Positions 3,196 through 5,646 of a DNA stretch of 56,792 nt are shown in pieces (positions within the stretch are counted from its first letter, which is position 1; each line of letters begins with the position of its first letter). Where the stretch lies: assembly GCF_001044255.1 (NCBI RefSeq), contig NZ_JYNX01000018.1, positions 1 to 56,792 of the forward strand, written 5' to 3'. The notes under the pieces were generated by a model. The model had not been told where the DNA came from. It was given only the letters and a program-made list of their open reading frames with translations, and searched no databases. Both the position numbers and the translations under genes were made by a program. The DNA is from Mycolicibacterium chubuense (GTDB lineage Bacteria; Actinomycetota; Actinomycetes; Mycobacteriales; Mycobacteriaceae).

Positions 3196-3543
3196 ATGAC
3201 CTACGTGATCGGAAAGTCGTGTGTGGATGTGAAGGACCGCGCCTGCGTGGAAGAGTGCCCGGTGGACTGCATCTACGAAGGTGGCCGCGCGCTCTACATC
3301 CATCCGGACGAATGCGTGGACTGTGGAGCATGCGAACCAGTCTGCCCGGTGGAGGCGATCTACTACGAAGACGATCTGCCGGCCGACCAGCACGATCATC
3401 TGGTCGACAATGCGGCCTTCTTCTCCGACCCGCTGCCCGGACGCGAGGGCCCGCTCGGCTCGCCGGGAGGTGCGGCCAAGCTCGGCCCGTTGGCGGTGGA
3501 TGCGCCGTTGGTCGCTGGGATGCCCCCGCAGGAGCAGTCGTGA
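3196..3543 (+). CDS. fdxA: 7Fe ferredoxin (3Fe-4S/4Fe-4S), FdxA type
   Basis: A 115-aa bacterial 7Fe ferredoxin. Cys9, Cys17 and Cys50 match the ligands of the 3Fe-4S cluster. Cys21, Cys40, Cys43 and Cys46 match the 4Fe-4S cluster, and Cys25 is the conserved extra cysteine. The motif CVDCGACEPVCPVEAI is diagnostic. It is a low-potential cytosolic electron carrier. The start is the ATG at 3196, just after a G-run (3189-3193), which gives the canonical MTYVIGKSC N-terminus; an upstream in-frame ATG at 3175 lies inside the putative operator. It is the first gene of a six-gene operon, and its TGA overlaps the GTG of the next gene. FdxA in M. tuberculosis belongs to the hypoxia/NO response (known), which suits the globin downstream. 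Partner proteins are unknown. Confidence 0.93.
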   Translation: MTYVIGKSCVDVKDRACVEECPVDCIYEGGRALYIHPDECVDCGACEPVCPVEAIYYEDDLPADQHDHLVDNAAFFSDPLPGREGPLGSPGGAAKLGPLAVDAPLVAGMPPQEQS

Positions 3544-4178
3544 GCGGGCGGCGCGCAGAGGTGCTGAAGGTGCTGCGGGCCGCCGACGGCCCGCTGAGTA
3601 TCACCGCGATCGCCGGCGAGTTGGCGATACACCCCAATACCGTGCGCTTCCACCTCGATGCGCTGGCAGAAACCGGGCAGGTCGAGGCGGTCGAGGCCGG
3701 TCGCACCAAGCCCGGCCGCCCGCCCCTGATGTTCCGGGCGGTCGCGGGCATGGACCCGGCCGGACCCCGCGATTACCAGATGCTGGCGGGCATTCTCGCC
3801 GACGCGCTTGCCCGTCAGCCGCGGCCGTCGGCGCGGGCCATGGCGGCGGGGCGGGCCAGCGCCGAGCGTGTCGCAGAGCCCGCCCGCACGCGCAGTCGGC
3901 GCCAGGCCGTCGACCGACTCACCGGGCTGCTCGACCAACTGGGATTCGCCCCCGAAAAAGACTCAGCGGCAACGAAGTCCGATGAGATCCGGCTGCGCAA
4001 CTGTCCGTTCCTGGAACTGGTCGACACCCGCAGAGATGTGATCTGCCCGATCCACCTGGGGATCATGCAGGGCGCACTCGAAGCGTGGGACGCGCCCATC
4101 ACCGTCGACGCGCTCACTCCGTTCGCCGAGCCGGACCTGTGCGTCGCGCATCTCGTCTCGGCAGGCAGCGCGTCATGA
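3540..4178 (+). CDS. HTH transcriptional regulator with C-terminal cysteine cluster (ArsR/SufR-like)
   Basis: A 212-aa protein starting at a GTG that overlaps the fdxA stop (GTGA). Residues ~1-65 form a winged helix-turn-helix (ITAIAGELAIHPNTVRFHLDAL, then a G-R-P wing). The C-terminal third carries N-C-P-F, then V-I-C-P-I-H-L-G-I-M-Q-G-A-L about 15 residues on, then P-D-L-C-V-A-H-L. This spacing of three or more Cys and His resembles SufR-type or related regulators that bind an iron-sulfur cluster. Translational coupling to a ferredoxin gene and linkage to a globin suggest a redox, NO or O2 sensor controlling this operon (inference). It could instead sense a metal. Confidence 0.8.
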   Translation: MSGRRAEVLKVLRAADGPLSITAIAGELAIHPNTVRFHLDALAETGQVEAVEAGRTKPGRPPLMFRAVAGMDPAGPRDYQMLAGILADALARQPRPSARAMAAGRASAERVAEPARTRSRRQAVDRLTGLLDQLGFAPEKDSAATKSDEIRLRNCPFLELVDTRRDVICPIHLGIMQGALEAWDAPITVDALTPFAEPDLCVAHLVSAGSAS

Positions 4179-4627
4179 GTACCGCGCACGCCGTTGCCGC
4201 CGCGGTCAGCTTCACGTGGCTGGGCATGGTCATCGCCATTTCGTTCATCGAAGCGCCGCTGAAGTTCCGCGCCCCCGGGGTGTCGCTGCAGATCGGCTTG
4301 GGTATCGGACGGTTGGTGTTCCGCGCCCTGAACACCGTCGAGGCCGTCCTGGCCGTGGTTCTGCTGATCGTCCTCGTGGCTGACCCGCCGTCGCCGACCG
4401 CCGCCGCCGCCGTATCGGTGGTCGTGGTGGCGTTGGCCGCGCAACTGTTGGTGGTGCGGCCGCGTCTGGCGCGGCGCTCCGATGTGGTCCTCGCCGGGCC
4501 GGCTGCTGCGCACGAGCCCGGCCAACCGACCCGCCGGTCGCGGGTCCACTACAGCTACGTCGGTTTGGAACTGGTGAAGATCGCCGCCTTGGTCATCAGC
4601 GGTGCCGCAGCGCTCGCAGGCGCCTGA
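4175..4627 (+). CDS. Small integral membrane protein, unknown function
   Basis: A 150-aa protein whose ATG overlaps the regulator stop (ATGA). About four hydrophobic segments are visible: residues ~5-25, ~48-70, ~75-95 and ~130-148. A conserved-looking loop EAPLKFRAPGVSLQIGLGIG lies between the first two, and a polar Arg-rich loop precedes the last. There is no catalytic motif that I recognise. Its place between a redox regulator and a globin suggests a membrane redox, quinone or gas-related role, but this is inference only. Confidence 0.75.
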   Translation: MSTAHAVAAAVSFTWLGMVIAISFIEAPLKFRAPGVSLQIGLGIGRLVFRALNTVEAVLAVVLLIVLVADPPSPTAAAAVSVVVVALAAQLLVVRPRLARRSDVVLAGPAAAHEPGQPTRRSRVHYSYVGLELVKIAALVISGAAALAGA

Positions 4628-4655
4628 ACACCGAACAGCGCATGAGGAGAGAACC

Positions 4656-4997
4656 ATGAAATCTTTTCCCCTTCGAGTGGTCACCAGCGTGGAGAGCGAC
4701 CAGCCAAGCCCACACGGGCTGTGGGAGTCCGATCCCGACGCGATCGCCTGGGACTTCCTCGGATCCGAGTTCACCGGGCTCGCCTACGCCAACTGGCCGA
4801 TCGAGCGCCGTGTGGGCGCCTATCTGACCCACAACGGCATGGCTCAGCTGTGGAACAACGGCGACGCTCATGCCGCCGTCCTGCACCGCGTGCTGGCGAA
4901 CGTCGGCGCGGCCCTGCGCAATGGGACGCTGCCCACCGCCACCTGGGCGGGCTCGCGGTTGCACCCTCGGGCAGAGCGCATCGCGGTGTCCGGGTGA
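4656..4997 (+). CDS. Hypothetical protein in ferredoxin-globin operon
   Basis: A 113-aa soluble protein of no family I recognise. The ATG at 4656 is preceded by AGGAGA (4645-4650), a good ribosome-binding site, so the start is well placed. The protein is rich in Trp and His (W-E-S-D, A-I-A-W-D-F, Q-L-W-N-N-G-D-A-H-A-A-V-L-H) and has no membrane segment or signal peptide. It lies 28 bp after the membrane-protein gene, and its stop overlaps a GTG usable by the globin gene, so it is part of the same transcript. Function unknown. Confidence 0.7.
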   Translation: MKSFPLRVVTSVESDQPSPHGLWESDPDAIAWDFLGSEFTGLAYANWPIERRVGAYLTHNGMAQLWNNGDAHAAVLHRVLANVGAALRNGTLPTATWAGSRLHPRAERIAVSG

Positions 4998-5002
4998 ACT
5001 GC

Positions 5003-5467
5003 ATGGCTGACGCGGCGTCGGCCGGCGCGGGTCGTCGCGATCTGGCCACCCGTAGGGACATCGAAGTGCTGCTGCGCCGCTTCTACAACGAAGCGTTCCG
5101 CGACGAGATTCTCGCCCCGCCGTTCGCCGAACTCGCTTCGCACGGGCTCGAACAACACCTTCCCGTCATGTGCGACTTCTGGGAGACCGTGCTGTTCCGG
5201 GCCGGGCTGTACCGGCGGAACGCGCTGACGGTCCATCGACGCATCCACGAGTGCACACCGCTGTCCGCGGTGCATTTCACGCGCTGGCTCGCCGTGTGGA
5301 CCGCTACCGTCGACCAGATGTACCAGGGGCCTGTCGCCGAACACGCCAAGATCCACGCCGGCCGGATCGCCGCCGCCATGAACCGGCGCCTCACCGGTGT
5401 CGACGACCCGGGGCGGCCACATCGATCCCTTCGAACCGCAATCAAGGAGCAGCCATGCGCGTTCTAG
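5003..5467 (+). CDS. Group III truncated haemoglobin-like protein
   Basis: A 154-aa haem-globin of the short, group III (proteobacterial-type) class. It shows the F-W-E-T-V-L-F segment, then A-V-H-F-T-R-W-L-A-V-W, whose His is the expected proximal haem ligand. The tail V-D-Q-M-Y-Q-G-P-V-A-E-H-A-K-I-H-A-G-R-I follows. Group III globins bind O2 and NO, and Campylobacter Ctb is NO-induced (known). The start is taken at ATG 5003; a GTG at 4994 overlapping the upstream stop would add three residues. The last 13 nt overlap the next ferredoxin gene. The context (two ferredoxins, a Cys-containing regulator) suggests NO or oxygen chemistry with ferredoxin as electron source (inference). Confidence 0.85.
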   Translation: MADAASAGAGRRDLATRRDIEVLLRRFYNEAFRDEILAPPFAELASHGLEQHLPVMCDFWETVLFRAGLYRRNALTVHRRIHECTPLSAVHFTRWLAVWTATVDQMYQGPVAEHAKIHAGRIAAAMNRRLTGVDDPGRPHRSLRTAIKEQPCAF

Positions 5468-5646
5468 TCGACCGTGATCGCTGTGAGGGCAATGCCGTCT
5501 GCGTGCGGATCGCACCGAAGATCTTTTCGCTCGACGACGACGATTACGCCGTGGTCAGCGCCGACCCACTGCCCGCCGACCAGGAGGCGCTCGTCGAGCA
5601 GGCCATCGCCGAGTGTCCGCGCGCGGCTCTGTCGCGCGCGGACTGA
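5455..5646 (+). CDS. Single-cluster ferredoxin (3Fe-4S type)
   Basis: A 63-aa small ferredoxin (MRVLVDRDRCEGNAVCVRIAP, then E-C-P-R-A-A-L). Its C-x5-C...C-P pattern is that of the actinobacterial 3Fe-4S ferredoxins that usually serve cytochromes P450 or other monooxygenases. AAGGAG at 5443-5448 is a good ribosome-binding site, and the gene overlaps the globin by 13 nt. No P450 gene is nearby, so the globin or another operon product may be the partner (inference). The reductase-like gene at 6476 is a possible electron source. It is the last gene of the operon. Confidence 0.88.
   Translation: MRVLVDRDRCEGNAVCVRIAPKIFSLDDDDYAVVSADPLPADQEALVEQAIAECPRAALSRAD

Follow-up and report, generated by a model that had tools for sequence, protein, structure and literature searches.

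A ferredoxin-globin operon of Mycolicibacterium chubuense with a predicted operator for a putative ArnR-type repressor

The window analysed here, a stretch of 56,792 nucleotides of Mycolicibacterium chubuense (assembly GCF_001044255.1, contig NZ_JYNX01000018.1, G000:C18 in our numbering; genome size 5.95 Mb), carries at positions 3196-5646 a plus-strand operon of six genes encoding two ferredoxins, a regulator, a membrane protein, a 113-aa protein and a truncated haemoglobin. We consider it probable that this operon is an autoregulated nitric oxide (NO) response unit under a repressor of the ArnR type. Computation established that the six genes are intact, that the regulator has a conserved pattern of potential cluster ligands, that a predicted operator precedes the first gene, and that this operator is linked to the regulator across genomes. 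The roles of the globin, the membrane protein, the 113-aa protein and any ferredoxin that reduces the globin are ones that we infer.

Open frames and family searches bore out the gene content and order given in the initial annotation. The first gene (3196-3543, +) encodes FdxA, a 115-aa ferredoxin of the 7Fe type that passes the actinobacterial 7Fe equivalog model (NCBIfam FdxA_Actino NF045480, 174.1 bits, cut-off 125). It is followed by genes for an ArnR-like winged-helix regulator (3540-4178, +; 212 aa, GTG start), a DUF4149-like membrane protein (4175-4627, +; 150 aa; PF13664 22.6 bits, just under the cut-off of 24.6), a protein of unnamed family (4656-4997, +; 113 aa; no Pfam or NCBIfam match), a group III truncated haemoglobin (5003-5467, +; 154 aa) and a single-cluster ferredoxin of the 3Fe-4S type (5455-5646, +; 63 aa; Fer4_15 and Fer4_13). 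The junctions were likewise as first described: three are overlaps, of 4, 4 and 13 nt, and two are gaps, of 28 and 5 bp. The six genes are predicted to form a single operon and transcript. A consensus promoter scan gave no match, and the sole terminator-like match, at 3402 inside fdxA, was no better than chance. The operon is real and intact, and combines ordinary parts in an uncommon way.

Pfam recognised only helix-turn-helix (HTH) domains in the regulator (HTH_20). Four residues in its C-terminal part, Cys155, Cys169, His172 and Cys201, were invariant in 25/25 close aligned regulators, and also in 16/16 diverse members from several families, down to 29% identity, in an alignment built largely from tblastn stretches, some of them lacking their ends. 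The regulator shows the residue pattern of the ArnR type: three cysteines in the C-terminal part, the first two of them separated by X13, together with a conserved histidine. ArnR is known as the repressor of nitrate respiration and flavohaemoglobin in Corynebacterium. It is a [4Fe-4S] repressor that leaves DNA upon nitrosylation, and it carries Cys179, Cys193 and Cys223 with a conserved His nearby (PMC12343034). From the residue numbers published there, the cysteine spacing is X13/X29 in ArnR and X13/X31 in the window regulator. C. glutamicum ArnR (Cgl1185, repressor of narKGHJI and hmp) and the window regulator are also alike in the HTH, the C-terminal cysteine trio, the histidine and NO-handling targets, predicted ones in the case of the window regulator, and distant relatives of the window regulator adjoin narG-narH-narI. 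These three genes adjoin regulator-like genes in 3/20 loci outside the genus (L291, L297, L302); nar genes lie near a regulator-globin pair in L125 and L126, and the narG of the window genome is on another contig. The two systems differ in that the window regulator is linked to a truncated haemoglobin of group III and ArnR to a flavohaemoglobin, in that the window regulator sits within its own ferredoxin-globin operon, and in that an operator is defined here. By analogy with ArnR, the window regulator may carry a [4Fe-4S] cluster, act as a repressor, sense NO and be released from DNA by it.

In its broad architecture, an HTH protein with C-terminal cysteines, and in its predicted role as a repressor with an Fe-S (iron-sulfur) cluster, the window regulator resembles SufR, which in M. 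tuberculosis represses the suf operon (PMC6034842). The regulator could on this basis sense iron or the supply of Fe-S clusters in the manner of SufR, with the two ferredoxins of the operon serving as replacement carriers and NO as just one of the agents that break clusters. We regard this as unlikely: the window regulator scored 16.6 bits against the SufR model (TIGR02702, which describes the cyanobacterial form; cut-off 178.8), and its predicted targets are others, the genes that bear the site described below being of diiron, oxidase and globin types. No suf gene was among the families identified near the regulator, in searches of which none was aimed at suf. Membership of the NsrR/Rrf2 family was also rejected (Rrf2 domain PF02082, 12.3 bits, cut-off 30). 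The outer edge of the regulator's own family is loose, because an order-wide search with the regulator profile matched 75/80 genomes, mostly weakly.

The initial annotation had proposed that the operon regulates itself, and had not recorded the conserved dyad that now supports this. The predicted operator (3160-3188, unstranded), which the regulator would bind, lies upstream of fdxA and has a core of the form CACAA-N7-TTGTG (CACAAGACATTGTTGTG, 3166-3182). This core has its centre 22 bp ahead of the first gene and its end 13 bp ahead of the start codon, and the right arm of the dyad runs into a -10-like TAAAAT (3183-3188). Around the core, the window has the longer dyad AGTTTNNACAA-N6/7-TTGTNTAAA. 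The core dyad is found upstream of related genes, often at nearly equal distance from the gene start; the aligned heads give the longer form AGTTTNNACAA-N6/7-TTGTNTAAACT, and many globin sites read TTGTAGAAACT.

We counted core sites within 150 bp in non-redundant upstream regions (heads), dropping upstream stretches of less than 100 bases; divergent heads share sites. The core site was present at 12/14 regulator heads, 13/24 fdxA heads, 14/34 globin heads and 4/5 membrane-gene heads, at 2/7 small-ferredoxin, 1/9 cupin and 0/1 113-aa-family heads, and at 22/698 other heads as background. With redundancy kept, there were 30 rows of other site-bearing genes: eight for OsmC, seven for DUF2249, five universal-stress-like, three for a molybdopterin/cytochrome b-type oxidoreductase, two for hemerythrin, two hydrolase-like, and one each for oxidase subunit I, a methyltransferase and another protein. 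One protein each was family-searched for OsmC, DUF2249, oxidoreductase, hemerythrin, oxidase and methyltransferase, and the rest were assigned by likeness. Two of the nine further core matches of the window genome, ACAAN7TTGT sequences in L148 (C34:111161) and L152 (C60:221558), are intergenic and near gene starts; they are without the full outer arms, and may be weak sites.

An extended pattern, GTTTNNACAAN6-7TTGTNTAAA, was run over a genus sample of 118 genomes, in which a strong regulator orthologue was defined by an expect value (E) of at most 1.8e-57. It occurred in 52 of the 71 genomes with a strong orthologue and in 0 of the 47 without one, whereas the reversed pattern, used as control, gave three matches in total over the 118 genomes. 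Of the 63 distinct extended sites, 48 had a regulator orthologue no more than 1.5 kb away. The window genome contains ten core matches and a single extended one, at the operon. After removal of the 38 genomes whose loci had been fetched, the window's included, the pattern was present in 21/33 orthologue genomes vs 0/47, in a set where some of the 33 may still underlie named loci used for the motif alignment. The P values obtained, 9e-18 and 4e-11, are not literal because the genomes share descent. Outside the genus, scanning after the motif had been fixed found 20/22 motif positions at fdxA on a Nocardioides plasmid, 19/22 between the oxidase and regulator genes in L289, and 21/22 at DUF2249 and 19/22 at fdxA in L292. 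Sites in L294 (16/22) and L295 (18/22) are weaker and near the noise level, best scores in loci of about 3 kb being mostly 11-15 and once 16.

In three genomes (G088, G217, G275) the site stands at a globin gene or an fdxA-globin pair, and the regulator is on another contig (two genomes) or 2.7 Mb away. Mere linkage is therefore no explanation for the association. Many of the loci sit among genes of the DosR type, which might suggest that the dyad belongs to another regulator, for example that of the dormancy system, and merely travels with the cluster. This appears very improbable to us, since the pattern is confined to genomes with a regulator orthologue, follows the globin in trans, and does not resemble the DosR box. 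A conserved operator at the start of the operon, whose presence in genomes tracks that of the regulator, makes self-regulation well supported, and the operator and regulon of an ArnR-type repressor in mycobacteria a well-supported prediction.

The regulator family was detected in 84 of the 118 genus genomes, 71 with a strong orthologue and 13 with weaker members only (1.7e-25 or worse), and the globin in 36. A strong regulator orthologue was present in 35 of these 36 globin genomes and in 36/82 of the others. We split the regulators into two clades at 46% identity to the window regulator. A regulator-family gene lay within 1.5 kb of the globin in 18/29 genus loci, nine for each clade, and in 42/80 named loci, 22 and 20 by clade; the 80 are the best of 132 relatives, those with names being mostly Mycobacterium, and the two sets overlap in part. 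The second clade is about 30-40% identical and adjoins the globin in 20 of the 80 named loci (L122, L130, L117, L124, L136, L143 and others). The pair of regulator and membrane protein recurs in variable order with genes for FdxA, the small ferredoxin, hemerythrin, cupin or the globin, the membrane protein gene following the regulator gene at many loci. Outside the genus, a Nocardioides plasmid has ctaD, DUF2249, fdxA-regulator, membrane protein and cupin, a Rhodococcus plasmid has a regulator divergent from fdxA-ctaD-membrane protein-globin, and Paenarthrobacter (L231) has regulator-membrane protein-globin. The conserved neighbourhood anticipated in the initial annotation thus held for the linkage of regulator and globin, which is well beyond chance, but not for the exact six-gene set.

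The closest relative found, G247, keeps five of the six genes with ratios of nonsynonymous to synonymous substitution rates (dN/dS) of 0.08-0.44, and its small ferredoxin is 95% identical to that of the window. The operon has the same right-hand neighbours in G247, and most other loci carry the module elsewhere, which suggests that the module moves between sites. A gene resembling a paralogue of cytochrome aa3 oxidase subunit I often adjoins fdxA and the regulator (L144:7460-9172, L280, L281, L289, L292, L295, L296) and sometimes shares the site, which suggests an oxidase subunit for use with NO or at low O2. At some loci, the globin has genes resembling quinol-type nitric oxide reductase at a distance of up to about 4 kb (L142:11486-13729, L141:6192), a label based on the NorB domain with one protein family-searched.

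The globin itself gave no Pfam or NCBIfam match. A profile of 26 relatives had as its top match the Campylobacter group III truncated haemoglobin 2ig3 (E 4.9e-6). Tyr28, His52, His78 and Trp95 were invariant in 26/26 and align with Tyr, His, His and Trp of 2ig3; we assign these residues to the heme pocket. Among homologues on plasmids, several bear the annotation 'group III truncated hemoglobin'. By profile similarity and conserved residues, the protein classifies as a group III truncated haemoglobin. The window genome encodes further globins, with two PF00042 genes and one PF01152 gene (PF01152 misses the window globin), so the window globin is not the sole candidate for NO defence.

The initial annotation had also suggested that ferredoxin electrons feed the globin. 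Of the 80 named loci, 9 have fdxA within 1.5 kb of the globin and 2 have the small ferredoxin there, the corresponding numbers among the 29 genus loci being 6 and 2, and fdxA was not found at the G247 locus. These observations weaken the proposed electron flow, and the reduction of the globin by either ferredoxin is a guess. Small ferredoxins of this type often serve P450s. This would fit a regulator that senses O2 or redox state, with the small ferredoxin and the globin serving an oxygenase or oxidase at low O2, as would the oxidase subunit I paralogues and hemerythrin genes that bear the site in some relatives, and the induction at low O2 of the M. avium group III globin (PMC11876180). We think such a regulator quite improbable: no P450 or oxygenase was noticed in the operon or in its flanks, which were not family-searched gene by gene, and ArnR hardly reacts with O2, its cluster degrading very slowly in it (PMC12343034). 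For the same reason NO fits better than O2 as the signal. The response to NO or O2 put forward in the initial annotation therefore stands in part, through the resemblance of the regulator to ArnR and the kinds of genes that bear the site.

The 113-aa protein was considered as a diagnostic gene for such operons and rejected, its family being common (67/118 genus genomes, mostly outside such operons; 13/200 genomes of the order). Among the loci inspected, it occurs inside such an operon only in the window, G247, G289 and L155, and among 17 other order-wide loci of the family three (L012, L013, L019) have a module gene within about 1.5 kb. Some members lie near acg-like, tgs-like, DosS-like, USP-like or DUF2249 genes; these labels come from sequence inspection and clustering, partly family-searched. 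At L104:1465-2760 a 113-aa-family domain and an acg-like nitroreductase share a single open frame, which hints at the partner of this family.

A 108-aa cupin-domain protein is encoded divergently from the operon (2741-3067, -; Cupin_2 32.1 bits, cut-off 27.2), and its gene, which the initial annotation had not recorded, has one common intergenic promoter region with it. The cupin gene is divergent in G247 too and neighbours the module at other loci, where the site stands at only one of nine cupin heads. Directly after the operon lies an opposing DUF3060 gene (5663-6367, -), and beyond it, 0.8 kb downstream of the operon, a Pyr_redox_2 flavoprotein gene (6476-7579, +) that is kept in G247 and may encode a ferredoxin reductase. 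The operon region (2741-9378) is bounded on one side by a RecC-like gene (1-2613, -; 871 aa, open at the edge of the window) and on the other by CorA-like and enoyl-CoA-hydratase-like genes, all labelled by inspection.

Two mycobacterial systems invite comparison. In M. tuberculosis, Rv2621c has been termed ArnR-like (PMC12343034), and it forms a locus with the membrane protein Rv2620c and the methylase Rv2622 (PMC10470581). Expression of Rv2621c rises on the first day of nitrite treatment (PMC6593118), and a csoR mutant has raised levels of it along with those of dosR and dosS (PMC4801387). The pair of regulator and membrane protein beside a methyltransferase gene also occurs in L115, a cluster that contains no globin or ferredoxin and by layout is probably of the Rv2621c kind. 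By layout, too, the predicted operator and regulon probably extend to the little-studied Rv2621c. The DosR regulon includes a group III globin in a hypoxia and NO response (PMC11876180), a response predicted here for the present module, which has a predicted repressor site at its heads. At least 15/20 positions of the DosR consensus were matched at 0 module heads and 2/698 others, a comparison of low power in which lone globins also fell below this level (best 14). DosR also controls fdxA in M. tuberculosis. In the open-licence literature searched, we found no account that connects a group III globin or the present operator to ArnR or Rv2621c, and no description of such an operator and regulon for an ArnR-type repressor in mycobacteria.

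Several observations weigh against an NO-response unit under an ArnR-type repressor, and we set them together here. The regulator was likened to ArnR through the published description of the latter. Some of the loci in which the core motif was counted had also served to find it, and the genomes share descent. The core site is present at only 14 of 34 globin heads, and 19 of the 71 orthologue genomes have no exact extended pattern, including G247, where the core is imperfect. Outside the genus, 24/29 loci had no site of at least 16/22 positions. The second regulator clade had the site at 0/26 non-redundant heads, and it should therefore use another site. Rv2621c falls with an aldehyde (PMC10470581) and has predicted Rv2034 sites in its promoter (PMC3338718), so that other regulators may act there. 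Finally, the M. avium group III globin (MAV_4008) depends on DosR and is induced when the bacterium is kept microaerophilic (PMC11876180), which suggests that the group III globin gene changed regulators between species.

Taken at the strength given above, an autoregulated NO response could proceed as follows. A dimeric ArnR-type repressor would hold a [4Fe-4S] cluster on its three cysteines, and perhaps His172, and would occupy the 3160-3188 dyad inside the promoter, blocking its own operon. NO would nitrosylate the cluster, upon which the repressor would leave the DNA and the operon would be expressed. At low O2, NO could come from the nitrate reductase of the cell itself, a source also proposed for ArnR; the window genome has narG. 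The globin, the ferredoxins and their partners would then be made together. The heme of the globin would handle NO or O2, and at a time when Fe-S proteins are being attacked the two ferredoxins would supply or replace electron carriers.

We judge it about evenly balanced whether this operon represents a second NO regulon beside DosR in mycobacteria and related actinobacteria. Such a regulon would be run by an ArnR-type [4Fe-4S] repressor through AGTTTNNACAA-N6/7-TTGTNTAAACT, and would comprise the group III globin, FdxA, the small ferredoxin, the DUF4149-like membrane protein, DUF2249, hemerythrin, OsmC and cytochrome oxidase subunit I, in one operon here and in several elsewhere, with the globin switching between this repressor and DosR in evolution. 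Loci outside the genus that are without the site, together with the second regulator clade, lower our confidence in it. The analysis ties group III truncated haemoglobins, a class of proteins with an unsettled role, to a regulator of the ArnR type via a defined predicted DNA site, and the same predicted site extends to genes for Fe-S, diiron and oxidase proteins across mycobacteria. This provides a precise and testable operator and regulon for a regulator present in 71/118 genus genomes. If true, mycobacterial responses to NO and hypoxia would be split between DosR and a repressor that senses NO directly.

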